This document shows positions 2,879 to 17,337 of a stretch of DNA of 64,000 nt, piece after piece (position 1 is the first letter of the stretch; every line of letters begins with the position of its first letter). This DNA comes from Afipia sp. (GTDB lineage Bacteria; Pseudomonadota; Alphaproteobacteria; Rhizobiales; Xanthobacteraceae). The stretch lies in the NCBI GenBank assembly GCA_017474385.1, contig JAFVHU010000152.1, positions 1 to 64,000 on the forward strand, given 5' to 3'. Made by a program: the position numbers and the translations under genes. The notes under the pieces are model-generated. The model saw only the letters and a program-made list of their open reading frames with translations, did no database searches and had not been told where the DNA came from.

Positions 2879-4078
2879 ATGGCCAACGATACGCCCCAGG
2901 GAACCACCGGCCCGACCAAGCTGGTGATCCGGAATATCGGTCTGATCCTGAGCGGGGCCATGGAGAAGCCGATCCTGGACGCCGACACCATCGTCGCGGA
3001 GAACGGCAAGATCACCGCCATCGGGCGGGCCAAGGATATCGATGCTGAGGGCGCGACCACGGTCATCGATGCCAACGGAACGACGGTCACCCCCGGCCTG
3101 ATCGACAGCCACGTCCATCCTGTCGCCGGCGACTGGACCCCGCGGCAGAACCAGATCGGCTGGATCGACAGCTTCCTGAACGGTGGCGTCACCACCATGA
3201 TTTCAGCGGGCGAGGTCCACATGCCCGGCCGTCCGCGCGACGTGGTCGGGGTCAAGGCGATGGCGATTTTTGCTCAGCGCGCGTTCGACAATCTGCGCCC
3301 CGGCGGCGTCAAGGTTCATGCCGGCGCGCCGGTGATCGAACCAGGGATGACGGAAGAGGATTTCAAGGAGCTTGCGGCAGCAGGCGTCAGGCTGCTCGGC
3401 GAAGTCGGTCTCGGCGGCGTCAAGGACGGCCCGACCGCGCGCAAGATGGTCGCGTGGGCGCGCAAATACGGCATCCAGAGCACGATCCACACCGGCGGCC
3501 CATCGATTCCCGGATCCGGCCTGATTGATGCGGACGTGGTGCTGGAAGCCGACACCGATGTTGTCGGTCACATCAACGGCGGCCACACCGCCCTCCCCGA
3601 TGGACAGATCCGATGTATCTGCGAAGGCTGCAAGCGGGGCTTGGAGCTGGTTCACAACGGTAATGAACGCTCGGCACTTTACACATTGCGCATAGCCCGC
3701 GAGATGAAAGAGCTGAACCGCGTCATTCTCGGCACCGACGCGCCAGCAGGTTCAGGCGTGCAGCCACTCGGCATCCTGCGGATGGTGTCTCTGCTGTCGG
3801 CGCTCGGCGATGTGCCGGCGGAAATCGCATTCTGCTTTGCCACCGGCAACACCGCGCGGATGCGTGCGCTTGACTGCGGCATTATCGAAGTCGGACGCGC
3901 GGCGGACTTCGTCATCATGGACAAGGCGCAGCACTCAGCCGGAAAAAACATTCTGGAGAGCGTTCAACTCGGCGATCTGCCCGGCATCGGCATGACGATC
4001 ATTGACGGCATCGTCCGCACGCATCGCAGCCGCAATACTCCGCCCGCAACCAAGGTGCCGGAGATCGTCGCGCAATAA
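2879..4078 (+). CDS. ena: Enamidase (1,4,5,6-tetrahydro-6-oxonicotinate amidohydrolase)
   Basis: The 399-residue protein belongs to the amidohydrolase superfamily and closely follows Eubacterium barkeri enamidase, which hydrolyses the reduced ring of 6-oxo-tetrahydronicotinate to 2-formylglutarate and ammonia. Visible family marks are DSHVHP (metal ligands H78 and H80), GGVTTMISAG, MPGRPRD, GEVGLGGVKDG, HTGGPSIPGS, HINGGHTA, GTDAPAGSG (D287), and the C-terminal RNTPPA, which is shared with the E. barkeri enzyme. The ATG follows GGAAGGAAAAATCC. No signal peptide is seen, so it acts in the cytoplasm. It converges on the MarR gene with a 10-base gap. Together with the hnr gene 8 kb away it places an anaerobic-type ring cleavage route in this genome. 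Another cyclic amidase role is possible but less likely given the neighbours. Confidence 0.88.
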   Translation: MANDTPQGTTGPTKLVIRNIGLILSGAMEKPILDADTIVAENGKITAIGRAKDIDAEGATTVIDANGTTVTPGLIDSHVHPVAGDWTPRQNQIGWIDSFLNGGVTTMISAGEVHMPGRPRDVVGVKAMAIFAQRAFDNLRPGGVKVHAGAPVIEPGMTEEDFKELAAAGVRLLGEVGLGGVKDGPTARKMVAWARKYGIQSTIHTGGPSIPGSGLIDADVVLEADTDVVGHINGGHTALPDGQIRCICEGCKRGLELVHNGNERSALYTLRIAREMKELNRVILGTDAPAGSGVQPLGILRMVSLLSALGDVPAEIAFCFATGNTARMRALDCGIIEVGRAADFVIMDKAQHSAGKNILESVQLGDLPGIGMTIIDGIVRTHRSRNTPPATKVPEIVAQ

Positions 4079-9405: not shown

Positions 9406-9990
9406 CTAGCGCAATCCGTCCTCACCTTTGATCTCGCCAACTGTCAAACCGCCGACACGCGGCAACGGCCGCCCGCTGTCGGTGACGGCAACCGCCACCA
9501 TGATTTCGTTCGCACGCGGTGCATCGTTAATCTGCACTTCCATCCCGTCGAAATGACTCCGTACGAATGCCGCATCCTTGTGACCAAGCGGAATATCGAG
9601 CACTGTTCCCAGTCCGCCGCGCTTTTTGGAAGACGGGATCAGCGCCGCGCCCTTGCTCAACACCTTACGTACCGGCGCTCCCATCTTCGGATGCAAGATT
9701 GCTGCCGCGTGCTCCAGTTCGCCATTCTCACCGACCGCCGCCGCCTTGCCGTAGCTCTGCGCCTTGCTGCCTTCGATACCGAGTGCCGCAACCGCCTTCG
9801 AAGCGAGCAGTTCGCCAAGTTCCTCGCCAATTGCGATCAATGGCGACAGGTCATCGACGAACTTGCCGGCAAACGGATTGTCGATCACCGCGATAGCTGC
9901 CGCGCGGCGGGTCGGCGGCGAAACATTCCGCCCGCCCTCCATGAGCGTCTCCTCGACCACCGTGACGATCTTGCGAATGACAGCGCTCAT
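9406..9990 (-). CDS. AA_synth (DUF1185, PF06684) family protein, paralogue A
   Basis: The 194-residue protein belongs to a small family of unknown reaction whose first structures were described as a variant of the chorismate mutase fold, with a suggested role in amino-acid metabolism. Family marks are NPFAGKFVDDL, GENGELEHAAAILHP, AFVRSHFDGMEVQINDAPRA and the C-terminus GEIKGEDGLR. Its ATG overlaps the stop of paralogue B (ATGA). The two copies share their C-terminal nine residues exactly and align along the whole length, so they arose by duplication and may form a heteromer. They are the third and fourth genes behind hnr, which links them to nicotinate ring breakdown. What they catalyse cannot be read from the sequence. 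Confidence 0.85.
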   Translation of the reverse strand: MSAVIRKIVTVVEETLMEGGRNVSPPTRRAAAIAVIDNPFAGKFVDDLSPLIAIGEELGELLASKAVAALGIEGSKAQSYGKAAAVGENGELEHAAAILHPKMGAPVRKVLSKGAALIPSSKKRGGLGTVLDIPLGHKDAAFVRSHFDGMEVQINDAPRANEIMVAVAVTDSGRPLPRVGGLTVGEIKGEDGLR

Positions 9991-10571
9991 CGCAGCCCAT
10001 CCTCCCCCTTGATCTCGCTGGCTTTGAGGCCGCCTACCCGGGCGTGGATTCGCGAGCCCGTGGTCATGACAAGCGCAAGAAGCAATTCGTCTGCGCGCGG
10101 TGCGTCGGGAATACCGACTTCCATGGCGTCGAAGTGCGAACGCACATATGACGCGTTGATGTGAGTGACCGGAACATCAAGCCGCGCACCCGGACCGCCG
10201 ACCTTCTTGGCGGATGGCACAATTGCCTTGGCCTCGCCGAGAATTTCGCGCATCGCGTAGCCGCCGGGCACATGCCACAACGCGCCGTGCTCGAGTTCAC
10301 CGGATGCGCCAATCACGGCCCCCTTGCCATAACCCTGTATCGTTCTCGGGTCACCGCCAAGCACCTTCAGTAGCGCGCCCGCCATGGCAACCCCGAGCGG
10401 CGTCAGATCATCCATGAACCCCGCGATGTCTTCCACATAACGTCCGGCGAACGGATTGCGGATCGCACACAGAATCGCCCCGCGGCGTAGCGGCTGCGCC
10501 GCCGGTTTCCCGCCTTCGTGGAAAATCTCCTCGAGCAAGGTGACGCGCTTCCGGATAACGATCTCAGACAT
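9987..10571 (-). CDS. AA_synth (DUF1185, PF06684) family protein, paralogue B
   Basis: This is also 194 residues and parallels the downstream copy: NPFAGRYVEDI, GASGELEHGALWHVP, SYVRSHFDAMEVGIPDAPRA and SEIKGEDGLR. I chose the ATG at 10571 (MSEIVIRKRV), which aligns with the start of paralogue A and has GGAAAG upstream; the upstream extension of 21 codons lies inside the preceding gene. It overlaps the UPF0280 gene by 8 bases and paralogue A by 4, so all three are translationally coupled. Roles to consider are a second hydrolase or isomerase for ring-opened acids, or assembly of the reductase; neither is shown by the sequence. Confidence 0.85.
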   Translation of the reverse strand: MSEIVIRKRVTLLEEIFHEGGKPAAQPLRRGAILCAIRNPFAGRYVEDIAGFMDDLTPLGVAMAGALLKVLGGDPRTIQGYGKGAVIGASGELEHGALWHVPGGYAMREILGEAKAIVPSAKKVGGPGARLDVPVTHINASYVRSHFDAMEVGIPDAPRADELLLALVMTTGSRIHARVGGLKASEIKGEDGLR

Positions 10572-11484
10572 GCAATAAACTTTCCGCTCGGGTTTGGGCG
10601 GCTCCATGCGGCAAAGGCCGCCAGGCAATACCATCGCTGTTCTTCAGCGCGACAACGCGGGTTTCGCCTTGCAGATGTAGCGCTGCGCCATCGATCAATC
10701 CGGATCCGAGAAGCGAACGGGCGGCATCAGTTCCCGCATCGAGTGCTGTAGTAATGTCGTGCAATGACAGCTCACCGACACCGCGCGTGACCAGATGCGC
10801 TCCCAGATCGCTGTCCGGCTGAAGGTCATTCGCCGGGTAGCGGACGATAGCAGGATGTTCCGGCAGATCGACCGCGTTGGCGATAATGGTCGCCGCAGCA
10901 TCAGCTTGCGCGGCAGTTCGCGCCAGAACCGTCACTGCGTCGGCTATTCCAAGCGAAAAACTGCGGCCGCGCCATCCACTTGTCGCGATACCGCGGGTCG
11001 GATCCTTCGATTCAACGATAGTCTTTCCAATCAGGCCAGGCATATCGGGACGATCAATCAGGCCGACTGCAAAACATCCGCCGTCAGCAAGATGCAGCGC
11101 AATGTCGCCACCGTTGTTGACGTAAGCGCGATCGAGATCGGATGCCTGGACCATCGCGCCGAGAATTTCTTCAGCGACCGCGCCAGCAACGGCCGCCATC
11201 GGCGTGATAAAATGATCCGCGGCAAATGGAGCGACTGCATGGTACATCCGGCGCGCAACTCCTCCCTTTAGCGAGGAGGTCGCAGGCCGGGCCGGTTTAC
11301 GCAGTTCCGATAACTCGTCACAAAGCTCATCGAGAAGACCGGTGAAACGCACAACGGCAGCATCGTATGCTGCACGAACGTTCGCTCCGGTTCCACGCGC
11401 CTCCACAATCAGATCGATCGGACCGTCATGCAGGTGAATCCGCCTGCCGTCCGCGAGCCATCCGATCTGTGGGAGGCGTTTCAT
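10564..11484 (-). CDS. UPF0280 family, ApbE-like protein coupled to hnr (possible flavin transferase)
   Basis: The 306-residue protein falls in UPF0280, a family with an ApbE-like fold. Motifs that match ApbE flavin transferases are NNGGD (residues 123-127, compare the NxGGD motif), ATSG (167-170) and ADAAAT (194-199). ApbE enzymes attach FMN from FAD to Thr or Ser of target proteins. The start at 11484 (MKRLPQIGW) overlaps the hnr stop as ATGA; a longer reading frame of 85 extra codons lies wholly within hnr and is not real. No lipoprotein or Sec signal is seen, so it is cytoplasmic, unlike most ApbE proteins. Its coupling to hnr, whose E. barkeri relative has covalent flavin, suggests it modifies that enzyme. 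The family assignment is firm, the reaction is inference. Confidence 0.8.
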   Translation of the reverse strand: MKRLPQIGWLADGRRIHLHDGPIDLIVEARGTGANVRAAYDAAVVRFTGLLDELCDELSELRKPARPATSSLKGGVARRMYHAVAPFAADHFITPMAAVAGAVAEEILGAMVQASDLDRAYVNNGGDIALHLADGGCFAVGLIDRPDMPGLIGKTIVESKDPTRGIATSGWRGRSFSLGIADAVTVLARTAAQADAAATIIANAVDLPEHPAIVRYPANDLQPDSDLGAHLVTRGVGELSLHDITTALDAGTDAARSLLGSGLIDGAALHLQGETRVVALKNSDGIAWRPLPHGAAQTRAESLLHV

Positions 11485-12947
11485 TTGCGCGATCTCGGCT
11501 CGGAAAGTTGTTTCGGGAGCTGACGAACTTCCGTGTTGGTCTTCAATGACGCCAATGGCCGCACATGATCCATGTGGCCGCCAAGCGCCGCGTAATCCGA
11601 TAATCGCAGGGTGAACTCGATCGGCGCGACCAGCGCCGGTGTCGGCACATAGCCAAAAGCTCCTTCCGGCACCTGCGTCACATCGACCATGAAAGTGATA
11701 CCGCCACCCGGCCACACATAGACCGGCGCTCCACCGCAAGTCACCGACGTCAGTGCGTCCTTGACCGAGCGCGTCAGCCGCACTGGATTATCGGTGACAC
11801 CCGCTCGGAGCGATCCGCCCGCCCCGCCCATGAACAGCACGGTGCACAGGGCAGGCTCGCAATTTTCCTGAATGCGTTCGACGGACAGCTTGAGATCGGC
11901 CGGCATTTCCTTCTCGATCGGCTTCAGCGCCTCGTCGAGTTCGAAATAGGCAGCGTGTTCACCGGTCGTGCTGACCATCATCATCCGCAGACCGGGCCGC
12001 GCGATCTTGGGATCAAACGGACCGAGCACCGACAACGGATCGGAAATGTTCGTGCCGCCCCAACCGATACCGGGCTCGGCAACCTGGAAATAGCGCCCGG
12101 GGGTCGAGCGCCGGCCCTTCAGCTTGATTCCGGTATCGGGAACATCAAGCAATTTCCCGGCTTGATGCTCTGACAGAACGCCGGTGATGTGATCATCCAC
12201 CACCACGACCTCATCGACTTTGCCGTGCCACTGCTTCGCAAACATGCCGATAGTTGCCGAGCCGCAACCCACCCGCATCCGCTCTTCCGGCACGCCATTG
12301 ACGATCGGCGGATAACCGGCTTGCACCACAACAGTCGCACCGCCATCGATCGTCATCTCGACAGGCTTGCCGTTGGACAGATCCATCAGCGCGTCGCATG
12401 TGACACGGCCTTCCTTCTTGGAGCCGCCAGTCAGGTGATGCACGCCTCCAATCGACAGCATCTGCGAGCCGTACTCGCCGGTGGTGACATGGCCGATCGC
12501 TTCGCCCTGAACACGCACCGTCGCGGTTTCAGGACCGAGATAACGGTCGGTGTCGATTTTCACCTTGACGCCGCAATAGCTGAAGATGCCCTCGGTCACC
12601 ACCGTGACCATATCGACACCGTCGACCTCGGAAGAAACGATAAACGGCGCGGGCTTGTAGTCCGGATAGGTCGTGCCGGCGCCGATAGCGGTCACGAAGA
12701 CGCTCGGCTCGCGGACGATTTTGCCATCCCAATCGCCGCCGGCCTGAAACGGAACGAGCCGGCCGCCATGGGACACCGTGCGCTCCAGCACGACATGCGG
12801 ATCGACGCGGACAAGCTCACCATTGTTGTTGGCATAGCGATCGCAGGCGCCCGCGGCGCCCGGCTTGATGTAACACATCACCGGACATGCATCGCAGCGG
12901 ATCTTGTCTGAGCTGCCAGCAGTGGTGACATTTGTTTCAGTCAGCAT
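11481..12947 (-). CDS. hnr: 6-Hydroxynicotinate reductase (iron-sulfur flavoenzyme)
   Basis: The 488-residue protein reduces 6-hydroxynicotinate to 1,4,5,6-tetrahydro-6-oxonicotinate with ferredoxin as electron donor. The N-terminus has the family cysteine set C18, C21, C25 and C35 in CDACPVMCYIKPG...GACDRYA, followed by VRVDPHVVLER. More cysteines lie in FSYCGVKV, VTCDAL, VGCGSATIG, ENCEPALC and VTCGGAP, enough for several Fe-S clusters. E. barkeri Hnr is reported to hold covalent flavin, one [2Fe-2S] and two [4Fe-4S] clusters. A DGGAT stretch (D201-T205) resembles, imperfectly, the [ST]GA[ST] flavinylation motif. I chose the ATG at 12947 since the upstream 44 codons look like promoter DNA and hold the operator. 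It heads the minus-strand operon and is divergent from nicA. Confidence 0.87.
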   Translation of the reverse strand: MLTETNVTTAGSSDKIRCDACPVMCYIKPGAAGACDRYANNNGELVRVDPHVVLERTVSHGGRLVPFQAGGDWDGKIVREPSVFVTAIGAGTTYPDYKPAPFIVSSEVDGVDMVTVVTEGIFSYCGVKVKIDTDRYLGPETATVRVQGEAIGHVTTGEYGSQMLSIGGVHHLTGGSKKEGRVTCDALMDLSNGKPVEMTIDGGATVVVQAGYPPIVNGVPEERMRVGCGSATIGMFAKQWHGKVDEVVVVDDHITGVLSEHQAGKLLDVPDTGIKLKGRRSTPGRYFQVAEPGIGWGGTNISDPLSVLGPFDPKIARPGLRMMMVSTTGEHAAYFELDEALKPIEKEMPADLKLSVERIQENCEPALCTVLFMGGAGGSLRAGVTDNPVRLTRSVKDALTSVTCGGAPVYVWPGGGITFMVDVTQVPEGAFGYVPTPALVAPIEFTLRLSDYAALGGHMDHVRPLASLKTNTEVRQLPKQLSEPRSRK

Positions 12948-13279: not shown

Positions 13280-13768
13280 ATGAGCATGATGCAAACAACG
13301 ATCCGTCTGACCGTCAACGGCAGAATTCACGATGTCGATGCCGCGCCAGACACCGCCCTTCTCTACGTACTGCGCAACGATCTCGAACTGAACGGCCCCA
13401 AATACGGCTGCGGTCTCGGGGAATGTGGCGCCTGCACCGTGATTATCGACGGTATAGCGGCGCGCTCATGCGTCATTCCTATTAGCGGCTGCGTGCAGCG
13501 AGACATCCTCACACTCGAAGGTCTTGGATCGCGCGATCATCTTGATCCGGTGCAGAAGGCCTTCATCGAAGAACAGGCAGCGCAGTGCGGCTACTGCCTC
13601 AATGGCATGATCATGACGACGAAGGCTCTGCTGATGCAGAACCCACACCCCTCCGAATCCGAAGTACTCAATACATTGCAATACAACCTGTGCCGGTGCG
13701 GTGCACATGTCGAAATCCTGCGTGCGGTGATGCGTGCTGCGGGCCATGTTGTTGTGGGACACAAGTAA
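13280..13768 (+). CDS. nicA: Nicotinate dehydrogenase small subunit, two [2Fe-2S] clusters
   Basis: The 162-residue subunit passes electrons from the molybdenum centre of NicB. It carries both cluster motifs of the xanthine dehydrogenase family: C-x4-C-x2-C...C in YGCGLGECGACTVIIDG and ARSC, and C-x2-C...C-x-C in QCGYCLNG and NLCRCG. With NicB it hydroxylates nicotinate at C6 in the aerobic pathway known from Pseudomonas putida. I chose the ATG at 13280 (MSMMQTTIRL); the upstream 52 codons overlap the promoter and palindrome. Starts at 13286 or 13289 are also possible and no strong ribosome site separates them. It overlaps nicB by one base (TAATG). Confidence 0.9.
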   Translation: MSMMQTTIRLTVNGRIHDVDAAPDTALLYVLRNDLELNGPKYGCGLGECGACTVIIDGIAARSCVIPISGCVQRDILTLEGLGSRDHLDPVQKAFIEEQAAQCGYCLNGMIMTTKALLMQNPHPSESEVLNTLQYNLCRCGAHVEILRAVMRAAGHVVVGHK

Positions 13769-16700
13769 TGGCGGCCGCTTCGCAGATGGACCATCAGCCA
13801 TCGCTTTCGGGATCGCTGTCCGTTGTTCACCCGGCATCTTCCAGCGGGAATGAACCAGCTTTCGAGACCTTTATCAAAATCGCGGCCAACGGGTCCGTTA
13901 CAGCATTCAATGGCCACGTCGATCTTGGAACCGGAATCCGCACTGCCCTTGGTCAAATCGTCGCGGAGGAACTCGACGTCTCGTTCGCGCGTGTGGTCGT
14001 TGTGCTGGGCGACACGTCGGTTGTGCCCAATCAGGGCGCCACCATCGCCAGCGAAACCATTCAGATCACCGCCATTCCGCTGCGCAAGGCGGCCGCGCAG
14101 GCACGTCATTTCCTGATGACGCGGGCTGCGAAGAAGCTCGATCTGCCGGTCAACGATTTGTCGGTGGAGGATGGCCTGATCCGTGGCCACGACAACCGCA
14201 GCGTCAGCTACGGCGAACTCATCGCAGGTGAAAGCATCCGGCTCGAACTCGCCGACGATGTCCCGGTCAAGGCGGTGGATGCCTACAGGATTGTCGGACA
14301 GTCAACACCGCGCGTTGACCTGCTGGCCAAGGCGACGGGAGAACTGGTCTATGTGCATGACGTACGCGTGCCGGGCATGCTGCATGGCCGCGTGGTCCGT
14401 CCGCCCTATGCCGGGGTCGATGCCGGAAATTTTGTCGGTACCAGCCTGATTGCCGTCGATGAATCATCAGTCCGCGACATTTCTGGAATTGTATCGGTGG
14501 TGCAGATTGGCGACTTCGTCGGGGTTGTCGCCGAGCGGGAAGAAAACGCGATCAAGGCGGCTTCTCAGCTAAAAGTCACCTGGAAGCCGACGCCAACACT
14601 GCCGTATCTCCAGGACATCGAAACCGCGCTCCGTGCCAATCCCAGCACACCGCGCACCTTGATCGACAAGGGCGACGTCGATGCAGCCATCGCGTCTGCC
14701 GACAAACCGATCAAGCGAACCTATGTCTGGCCGTATCAGATGCACGGATCGATTGGACCATCCTGCTCGGTCGCGGAGTTTCAGGATGACGTCGTACGGG
14801 TGTGGTCCGGCACGCAAAATCCTCACATCTTGCGGTCTGATCTTGCGCTGCTTCTTGCGCTACCGGAATCCCGAATTGATGTGATCCGCATGGAGGCCGC
14901 TGGCTGTTATGGCCGCAACTGTGCCGACGACGTGTCCGCAGACGCTGTGTTGCTGTCGCGCGCCGTGGGCCGCCCGGTGCGCGTGCAACTGACGCGTGAA
15001 CAGGAGCATGCGTGGGAGCCCAAAGGCACCGCGCAACTGATGGACGTTAACGGCGGCTTGCGTGCGGACGGCAGCGTCGCGGCTTACGACTTCACCACGC
15101 GCTATCCATCGAACGGCGCGCCGACGCTGGCGCTGCTGTTGACCGGAGCAGTTCCTCCGGTGCCGGCTGTCTTTGAAATGGGCGACCGGACCGCAATCCC
15201 GCCCTACGATTACGACGCGATGCGCGTGATCGCGCATGATATGCCGCCGATCGTGCGCGCGTCATGGTTTCGCGGCGTATCGGCATTGCCGAACACTTTC
15301 GCGCATGAATCCTACATTGACGAACTCGCCACCGAAGCCGGCGTCGATCCCATTGAGTATCGATTACGCTATCTGAAGGACCCACGCGCCGTCGATCTGG
15401 TCAACGCTGTTGCGGAACGCGCTGGCTGGACTCCCCGCCCGATCTGGAAAGAACCCGAGTCCGAAGGCGACGTTGTCCGCGGACGCGGCTTCGCTTACGC
15501 GCTTTATGTTCACAGCAAGTTCCCGGGCTACGGCGCGGCATGGTCGGCCTGGGTCGCTGATGTCGCAGTCAACAAATCGACCGGTGACGTCAGTGTGACG
15601 CGCGTGGTAGCAGGGCAGGATTCCGGGCTGATGATCAATCCGGACGGTGTGCGCCACCAGATCCACGGCAACGTCATCCAATCGACCAGCCGGGCGCTGA
15701 TGGAAGAAGTCTCGTTTGAGCGGGCTACGGTGGCGAGCCGTGAATGGGGCGCTTACCCGATCATAAAGTTTCCGGACGTCCCGAAGATCGACGTGCTGAT
15801 GCTGCCGCGTCAGGATCAGCCGCCTCTTGGTGTCGGCGAATCCGCCTCCGTCCCCAGCGCCGCAGCCATTGCCAACGCCATCTTCGACGCAACCGGTGTG
15901 CGGTTTCGCGAACTGCCGTTCACTCCGGATCGCATCCTCGCCGGATTGCGCGGCCAGAAACCATCGCAGGGCGCACTGCCTGAACCACGGCTCAAACAAC
16001 AAGAGCGGCCGACGCAGCCTCAAAGCGATCCATTTCTCAAACGCCGCAACGTGTTTGCTGGTGTCGTCGCAGCATGCGCCGCGGTTGTCGGTGTCGCCAC
16101 TGCGGTGCTGCCGTGGCGGTCAATCGCGCCAATTGCCCGGCCGGATGCATCGATCTATTCGGCGGCGACCATCGCCCGGGGTCAGCAACTCGCCGCGCTC
16201 GGTAACTGCGCGGCGTGCCACACCGAGGCCAATGGTGTCGTCAATGCCGGTGGCCGCGCGCTCGAGACGCCATTCGGCGTCATCTACAGCACCAACATCA
16301 CCCCCGACCCAGAAACCGGAATCGGCGCGTGGTCCTATCCGGCCTTCGAACGATCGATGCGCGAAGGCATCCATCGCGATGGCCGACAGCTCTATCCCGC
16401 GTTTCCCTACAATCACTTCGCCAAAACAACCGACGCCGACTTGCAGGCGCTCTACGCCTACTTGATGGCGCAGGAGCCGATGCGCGCAATCAATCGGGAG
16501 AACGCGCTGGCGTTTCCCTTTAATCTCCGCCCTCTGCTGGCGGGCTGGAATGCGCTGTTTCACAAGCCGGCCGTCTTCGAGCCGGATCCCGTCCAATCCC
16601 CAGTGTGGAATCGCGGAGCCTATCTGGTCGAAAGCCTGGGCCACTGCGGCGCCTGCCATACCCCGCGCAACGCATTGGGCGCAGAGAGAAACGCCAAAGC

Positions 16701-17337
16701 CTATCTGGCCGGCGGAGTTGCCGAGGGCTGGGAAGCGCCGCCGCTAACCTCTCTCTCGCATGCACCGATACGCTGGAGCGAAGACGAACTCTTTGCTTAT
16801 TTGCGAACTGGCATATCCCGTTTCCATGGCGTGGCCGCCGGACCGATGGCGCCGATCGTAAGAGACCTTGCATCCGTGCCCGACAGCGACATTCGCGCCA
16901 TGGCGGTCTATCTCGCCTCTTTCAACGACACGGCGGTTGCCCCATCGGTTCAAGAAGCCCTGGCAGCGCGGCTGGAAACGTCGACAAGCGTGAAAGCGAT
17001 TTCCGCATCCGCAGCGGGCGCGCGCATCTATGACGGCGCGTGCGCTGTATGTCATCAAGTGGGCGGGCCCGTGTTGTTTGGCAGCAGACCCTCGCTGGCA
17101 CTGAACACCAACCTGCACAGCGCCTCGCCTGACAATCTCATTCAGGTCATTCTGCATGGCATCGAACAGCCGGTTTCCAGCGATCTCGGCTACATGCCCG
17201 CGTTCAAAAACAGCCTGAATGACCAACAGATCATGGAGTTGGTCTCATACCTGAGGCAGCAGTTCGCCCCGGACAAGGCTCCCTGGACCGACGTCGCGGC
17301 GGCGATAGGCCGAGCTCGCCATGGAAGCAGGCCATAA
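13768..17337 (+). CDS. nicB: Nicotinate dehydrogenase large subunit, molybdopterin domain fused to three c-type haems
   Basis: The 1189-residue chain matches P. putida NicB in length and layout. Residues 1 to about 740 are the molybdenum cofactor domain, with the catalytic Glu in GVGESAS. A single membrane segment follows near residues 762-780 (VFAGVVAACAAVVGVATAVL). The C-terminal part has three haem-binding motifs: CAACH (C814), CGACH (C960) and CAVCH (C1092). Electrons thus leave through cytochrome c domains to the respiratory chain rather than to NAD. Water is the oxygen donor for 6-hydroxynicotinate formation. The membrane segment implies the haem part is periplasmic; how the molybdenum domain is placed is not evident. 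The start codon overlaps the nicA stop; a longer frame inside nicA is spurious. Confidence 0.93.
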   Translation: MAAASQMDHQPSLSGSLSVVHPASSSGNEPAFETFIKIAANGSVTAFNGHVDLGTGIRTALGQIVAEELDVSFARVVVVLGDTSVVPNQGATIASETIQITAIPLRKAAAQARHFLMTRAAKKLDLPVNDLSVEDGLIRGHDNRSVSYGELIAGESIRLELADDVPVKAVDAYRIVGQSTPRVDLLAKATGELVYVHDVRVPGMLHGRVVRPPYAGVDAGNFVGTSLIAVDESSVRDISGIVSVVQIGDFVGVVAEREENAIKAASQLKVTWKPTPTLPYLQDIETALRANPSTPRTLIDKGDVDAAIASADKPIKRTYVWPYQMHGSIGPSCSVAEFQDDVVRVWSGTQNPHILRSDLALLLALPESRIDVIRMEAAGCYGRNCADDVSADAVLLSRAVGRPVRVQLTREQEHAWEPKGTAQLMDVNGGLRADGSVAAYDFTTRYPSNGAPTLALLLTGAVPPVPAVFEMGDRTAIPPYDYDAMRVIAHDMPPIVRASWFRGVSALPNTFAHESYIDELATEAGVDPIEYRLRYLKDPRAVDLVNAVAERAGWTPRPIWKEPESEGDVVRGRGFAYALYVHSKFPGYGAAWSAWVADVAVNKSTGDVSVTRVVAGQDSGLMINPDGVRHQIHGNVIQSTSRALMEEVSFERATVASREWGAYPIIKFPDVPKIDVLMLPRQDQPPLGVGESASVPSAAAIANAIFDATGVRFRELPFTPDRILAGLRGQKPSQGALPEPRLKQQERPTQPQSDPFLKRRNVFAGVVAACAAVVGVATAVLPWRSIAPIARPDASIYSAATIARGQQLAALGNCAACHTEANGVVNAGGRALETPFGVIYSTNITPDPETGIGAWSYPAFERSMREGIHRDGRQLYPAFPYNHFAKTTDADLQALYAYLMAQEPMRAINRENALAFPFNLRPLLAGWNALFHKPAVFEPDPVQSPVWNRGAYLVESLGHCGACHTPRNALGAERNAKAYLAGGVAEGWEAPPLTSLSHAPIRWSEDELFAYLRTGISRFHGVAAGPMAPIVRDLASVPDSDIRAMAVYLASFNDTAVAPSVQEALAARLETSTSVKAISASAAGARIYDGACAVCHQVGGPVLFGSRPSLALNTNLHSASPDNLIQVILHGIEQPVSSDLGYMPAFKNSLNDQQIMELVSYLRQQFAPDKAPWTDVAAAIGRARHGSRP

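Follow-up and report, generated by a model that had tools for sequence, protein, structure and literature searches.

The hnr-UPF0280 gene pair and its distribution

The window analysed here, a stretch of 64,000 nucleotides, belongs to an Afipia sp. genome that is 84% complete and comprises 4.48 Mb on 162 contigs. On its reverse strand lies hnr (P0002, 11481..12947), which encodes a homologue of 6-hydroxynicotinate reductase (Hnr) of 488 amino acids. It is followed on the same strand by a gene for a protein of 306 amino acids (P0001, 10564..11484) of the UPF0280/COG2122 family (NCBIfam NF003322), which we propose to be the flavin transferase of Hnr. The relatives of P0002 carry the record name 6-hydroxynicotinate reductase, and the closest named one, from Afipia birgiae, is 94% identical. 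For the Hnr of the bradyrhizobial strain SG-6C the available part of PMC3511419 gives 42% identity to the Hnr of E. barkeri. As an earlier note on this DNA had stated, the stop codon of hnr and the start codon of UPF0280 overlap as ATGA (11481..11484, reverse strand). The two genes overlap in 85 of 109 locus pairs, a count in which start codons were chosen by script and repeated genomes were kept.

The earlier note had named a lack of genomic co-occurrence of UPF0280 and Hnr as a ground for rejecting its idea; in the samples searched the two co-occurred nearly perfectly. P0001 belongs to the NF003322 family, as it scores 410.8 bits against a curated cut-off of 290. In a class-wide survey, 190 genomes were searched for NF003322 and Hnr. 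Matches to NF003322 occurred in 32 of them, 26 above the cut-off and 28 strong, the latter number including two genomes (G064 and G087) in which the match was split over contigs. Hnr was found in the same 28 genomes, so that strong NF003322 matches were present in 28/28 genomes with Hnr and in 0/162 without it; by their coordinates the two genes shared a contig and adjoined in each case. The four weak matches (below 30 bits; G143, G099, G109 and G121), all from genomes without Hnr, were set aside. Those of G143 and G099 are proteins of weak similarity in which both GGD and TSG are absent, and that of G109 lies in an open reading frame that reads as a short-chain dehydrogenase. Two such weakly UPF0280-like proteins that lack these motifs and come from genomes without Hnr, at L165:6982-7776 and L167:2852-3607, adjoin a methyltransferase-like gene.

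The same pairing was seen in other samples. UPF0280 lay at most 1.5 kb from Hnr in all 35 loci fetched from whole genomes (33 distinct genomes). Among the best 80 named Hnr loci in GTDB genomes it was located downstream on the same strand in 77, with a spacing of 6-319 bp by profile matches. In the three exceptions (Acidisphaera sp. L21, Microvirga antarctica and a Bradyrhizobiaceae metagenome-assembled genome, MAG) the NF003322 gene was outside the fetched stretch, and the match of Acidisphaera sp. L21 was interrupted by an internal stop. Seven of the 80 loci came from MAGs titled acidobacterial, with an Hnr about 75-77% identical to that of the window, which may reflect recent transfer or wrong binning. 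Among 277 genomes of Acidobacteriota the sole full Hnr and the sole NF003322 protein above the cut-off both came from G473, a genome already known as the centre of this search. On plasmids, Hnr was present in 26 records and UPF0280 in 27; all 26 pairs were neighbours by coordinates and at most about 0.6 kb apart. We conclude that UPF0280 is very likely a dedicated partner of Hnr.

Some matches were partial. In the Acidobacteriota search 14 of 15 Hnr matches covered the N-terminal iron-sulfur (Fe-S) motif alone, and in one search 3 of 24 were limited to it (G191, G248 and G415). In G028, a genome on a single contig, hnr (C1:2969808-2971189) is found in two overlapping frames, and the UPF0280 match downstream is free of stops. 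The unpaired plasmid record, pBPS33-1 of Hydrogenophaga sp. BPS33, has UPF0280 in four places. Two of these were opened (L168:4123-5055 and 14932-15864) and, judged by eye, each is preceded by a short remnant of the end of hnr; an annotated IS1071 stands directly before the second.

UPF0280 as a putative flavin transferase

The predicted fold of UPF0280 is that of ApbE. The homology of the Desulfovibrio vulgaris Miyazaki COG2122 protein to ApbE apparently does not reach the flavin-binding region according to the accessible portion of PMC5764234. Our fold comparison of the Hnr-linked UPF0280 covers nearly the whole chain. Against the ApbE model of Pfam (PF02424) P0001 scored 17.5 bits, below the curated cut-off of 25.6. 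Residue conservation was counted over 119 Hnr and 114 UPF0280 rows, which are distinct sequences with a few from the same genome, and the ApbE alignment used for hhalign comprised those 19 of 31 fetched ApbE loci that were recognised by script and shorter than 480 amino acids.

The earlier note had likened three motifs of UPF0280 to those of ApbE, and most active-site residues of UPF0280 are indeed those of ApbE. In NNGGD (residues 123-127; 11104..11118, reverse strand) N123, G125, G126 and D127 are present in 114/114 rows and N124 in 105/114. S169 in ATSG (residues 167-170; 10975..10986, reverse strand) aligns with the catalytic Ser of ApbE, while D195 and T199 in ADAAAT (residues 194-199; 10888..10905, reverse strand) align with its conserved Asp and Thr. 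S169 and T199 were found in 114/114 rows and D195 in 113/114. Behind ATSG, where ApbE has the loop with its catalytic His, UPF0280 has a deletion. The catalytic triad of ApbE is Ser-His-Asp (S241, H257 and D285 of the Vc protein, as given in the available part of PMC12052999); UPF0280 retains the Ser and the Asp but not the His.

Of 33 Hnr genomes, 15 have no canonical ApbE (PF02424); when only the 29 with a completeness of 90% or more and a contamination of 5% or less are counted, 12 have none. Among the acidobacterial Hnr MAGs it is absent from 6 of 7. The genome of the window does possess a canonical ApbE, which has an apparent twin-arginine export signal. Neither Hnr nor UPF0280 has such a start, and no export signal was seen in UPF0280, unlike the flavin transferases ApbE, Ftp and FmnB. 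Because ApbE is often missing or apparently exported, an ApbE-type bond in Hnr would need a cytosolic enzyme.

UPF0280 may be this enzyme, a cytosolic and divergent flavin transferase of the ApbE superfamily that matures Hnr. Its translation would be coupled to that of hnr, and its pocket (GGD, ATS169G, D195 and T199) would bind flavin adenine dinucleotide (FAD) together with Mg2+. Flavin mononucleotide (FMN) would then be moved to a Thr or Ser that is invariant in Hnr, and the attached flavin would take electrons from the Fe-S clusters of Hnr and reduce 6-hydroxynicotinate. Our data show the strict pairing in the searched samples, the predicted ApbE fold, the conserved pocket residues and that many Hnr genomes have no canonical ApbE; FAD binding, FMN transfer, the target site and a covalent flavin in the Hnr of these bacteria, like that of E. 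barkeri, are inferred. In our judgement the odds are slightly in favour of an ApbE-type FMN transferase acting on Hnr, which is likelier than any single rival, and UPF0280 is the best candidate for how the flavin of Hnr becomes attached.

Target site and competing explanations

The earlier note had put forward DGGAT (residues 201-205 of Hnr), with T205 (codon 12333..12335, reverse strand), as a weak candidate for the flavin site. As a family-wide site this had to be abandoned, the position being Thr in 73, Ser in 21 and neither in 23 of 117 rows. Hnr has numerous Ser and Thr residues that are invariant, and two pairs of them stand out, although the choice of either is a guess. The first candidate is T92-T93 in GAGTTYPDYKPAPFI (12669..12674, reverse strand), present in 119/119 rows. 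Hnr is invariant from T92 through I103, yet most of this stretch has a predicted local distance difference test score (pLDDT) below 50 in the model, as residues 63-100 do, and T92-T93 lie in a low-confidence loop. The second candidate is T155-T156 in HVTTGEYG (12480..12485, reverse strand), conserved in 116/119 and 119/119 rows, respectively.

Two weak resemblances of Hnr to other families were noted. Residues 12-45 (window 12813-12914), with the N-terminal Fe-S motif, resemble the start of the AmmeMemoRadiSam radical SAM enzymes (TIGR04337, E 0.062, under the cut-off), and weak matches to about the same residues occurred in other genomes. Residues 126-161 (window 12465-12572) lie in a weak match to the C-terminal barrel of the glycine cleavage T-protein, which was obtained for 14/14 scanned Hnr sequences with a best E of 0.0002, P0002 itself being under the cut-off.

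Several points weigh against flavin transfer by UPF0280. A loop of about 19 residues which carries the catalytic His in 19/19 canonical ApbEs is deleted in UPF0280, and the flavinylation motif D-x-x-[S/T]-G-A-[S/T] occurs in 0/119 Hnr rows. The proposed enzyme and its proposed target thus both differ from the ApbE/Ftp/FmnB system (PF02424, target DxxSGA[S/T]). With T205 unconserved as well, the chemistry and the target site must be other than those of textbook ApbE if the proposal is right. Both absences would also suit a covalent flavin that Hnr attaches to itself, UPF0280 having kept the fold of ApbE but acting only as a chaperone without catalysis, and so would the conserved H153, H171, H253, H261, C184, C228 and C363 of Hnr. 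We think self-catalysis unlikely, since a pure scaffold would have no need of S169, T199 and D195.

A further difficulty for the transferase proposal is that covalent flavin has reportedly been found, in 2006, in the Hnr of E. barkeri only. UPF0280 might instead act as an FAD pyrophosphatase and provide Hnr with FMN in the manner of Treponema Ftp, with no covalent bond being formed. We give this little credence: the flavin said to be covalently bound in E. barkeri would be left unexplained, and a free supply of FMN would not demand one fixed partner.

The third difficulty concerns the specificity of the pairing. Downstream of UPF0280 lie genes for two 'amino acid synthesis' proteins of the PF06684 family, B (9987..10571, reverse strand), which with the chosen start at 10571 overlaps the stop of UPF0280, and A (9406..9990, reverse strand), whose start overlaps the stop of B. 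A PF06684-type match was present in 72 of the 80 Hnr loci, compared with 77 for UPF0280, and each occurred in 54 of 57 loci when both flanks were long; the two PF06684 queries may match one and the same gene. Genome-wide, PF06684 was found in 26/28 genomes with Hnr and in 12/162 without it. Since PF06684 is about equally conserved in the cluster, linkage alone does not name the substrate of UPF0280. UPF0280 might even be a catabolic enzyme of the nicotinate pathway that acts on a small ring molecule, and not a maturation factor. This is the least probable of the explanations considered here, because the matches to the ApbE fold rank far above the urate oxidase rows and because UPF0280 follows Hnr more tightly than do the other tested genes of the cluster. 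Pairwise distances of Hnr and UPF0280 correlate with r 0.954, whereas those of other tested cluster genes with Hnr gave r 0.755-0.821 and the nine other gene pairs together 0.642-0.821. The comparison covered 61 of 74 loci; PF06684 and [2Fe-2S] proteins entered it as tblastn segments, which possibly lowered their correlations.

Finally, COG2122 is genetically tied to homocysteine synthesis, and in the available parts of PMC5764234 and PMC12068725 sulfur trafficking, not flavin, is proposed for it. In Desulfovibrio vulgaris Miyazaki homocysteine formation depends on the COG2122 protein, whose fitness pattern is nearly identical to that of the DUF39 protein, as far as the accessible text of PMC5764234 goes. 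The same excerpts of the two papers describe relatives that are needed for homocysteine synthesis and low-sulfide use, and MA1715 of methanogens is there called a sulfur trafficking protein. By analogy, UPF0280 could help to build the Fe-S clusters of Hnr or hand over sulfur, with no flavin being moved. The cysteines of Hnr would be in keeping with this role: four form an N-terminal Fe-S-like motif (C18-C21-C25-C35), and with C125, C184, C228 and C363 there are eight that are conserved in 116-119 of 119 rows. We nevertheless consider a role in Fe-S assembly or sulfur delivery improbable. The UPF0280 proteins of the Hnr-linked group have no invariant cysteine (114 rows, commonest column 79/114) and their predicted fold is that of ApbE. 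Moreover, the homocysteine-forming HcyBio (PF01837) was found in 0/299 Pseudomonadota genomes and had no match in the genome of the window, which is 84% complete, so a place of Hnr-linked UPF0280 in the homocysteine pathway is unlikely.

The suggestion of the earlier note that UPF0280 is a dedicated flavin transferase of Hnr is thus favoured by co-occurrence, fold and most active-site residues, and disfavoured by T205, the catalytic His and the target motif. In a literature search made mostly in papers open without subscription, none of the matches listed named UPF0280, whether as a flavin transferase or otherwise, or tied flavinylation to 6-hydroxynicotinate, and no paper combined flavin with 6-hydroxynicotinate reductase. 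Neither 'UPF0280' nor 'nicotinate' was found in the main text of a 2025 review on ApbE.

COG2122 relatives and neighbouring genes

The COG2122 partners of HcyBio include the published MA1715 and DvMF_0044, two proteins (L197 and L199) that exceed the cut-off of NF003324, and DVU1097/2o34 by fold. The UPF0280 described here differs from them in having Hnr as its partner and a separate NCBIfam model, NF003322. Residue 174 is Arg in 113/114 Hnr-linked UPF0280 proteins, compared with His in 5/6 and Tyr in 1/6 HcyBio-linked ones. Besides G473, ten genomes of Acidobacteriota gave weaker matches to NF003322, with 24.5 bits in one and 62-104 bits in the other nine. These nine were fetched, and the COG2122 gene was recognised by script in six, the other three being left uncounted. 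An HcyBio-like gene was present on the same fragment in 6/6, five times adjacent in the same direction and once facing the COG2122 gene; Pfam confirmed HcyBio in L197, the one that was scanned. By eye, the COG2122 genes in L195, L197, L201 and L202 stand beside HcyBio and genes for aspartate semialdehyde dehydrogenase and aspartokinase, which suggests the same homocysteine pathway as in methanogens and sulfate reducers. Hnr and HcyBio showed a faint likeness (z 2.6-3.7 in four of five settings with our own alignments, 0.5 in the fifth) and gave no signal by hhalign or Pfam; the two might be remote relatives.

It is conceivable, though we doubt it, that UPF0280/COG2122 as a whole represents a second, cytosolic branch of flavin transferases without the His of ApbE or the DxxSGA[S/T] target, with sub-branches serving Hnr and HcyBio/COG1900. 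The homocysteine-forming HcyBio/COG1900 enzymes would then also be covalent flavoproteins, whose flavin would convert single electrons from ferredoxin into a two-electron step, and the requirement of COG2122 for homocysteine synthesis would be explained. If flavin transfer to Hnr is correct, it would identify the protein by which 6-hydroxynicotinate reductase, an enzyme of vitamin B3 breakdown, receives its flavin. A family known by genetics, as far as the accessible literature goes, would gain a biochemical activity, and protein flavinylation would be seen to work with an altered active site on a new target sequence. The finding would also bear on methionine synthesis in methanogens and sulfate reducers, where COG2122 has a role that is still unexplained.

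Further genes surround the pair. On the forward strand, an amidohydrolase gene (2879..4078; Pfam Amidohydro_1/_3) likely encodes enamidase, the next step of the pathway. Also on the forward strand are genes for a [2Fe-2S] subunit (13337..13768; Fer2_2) and for a molybdopterin large subunit fused to cytochrome c domains (13774..17337; MoCoBD_1, MoCoBD_2 and Cytochrom_C), both probably of nicotinate hydroxylase. A nicotinate phosphoribosyltransferase gene was located nearby by domain search. In the available part of PMC3511419, which deals with the nicotinate cluster of Azorhizobium, Bradyrhizobium and strain SG-6C, the unknown genes of the cluster are given no function. Genes for a putative ATP-binding cassette (ABC) transporter, read from the translations without a database search, lie in the same surroundings.
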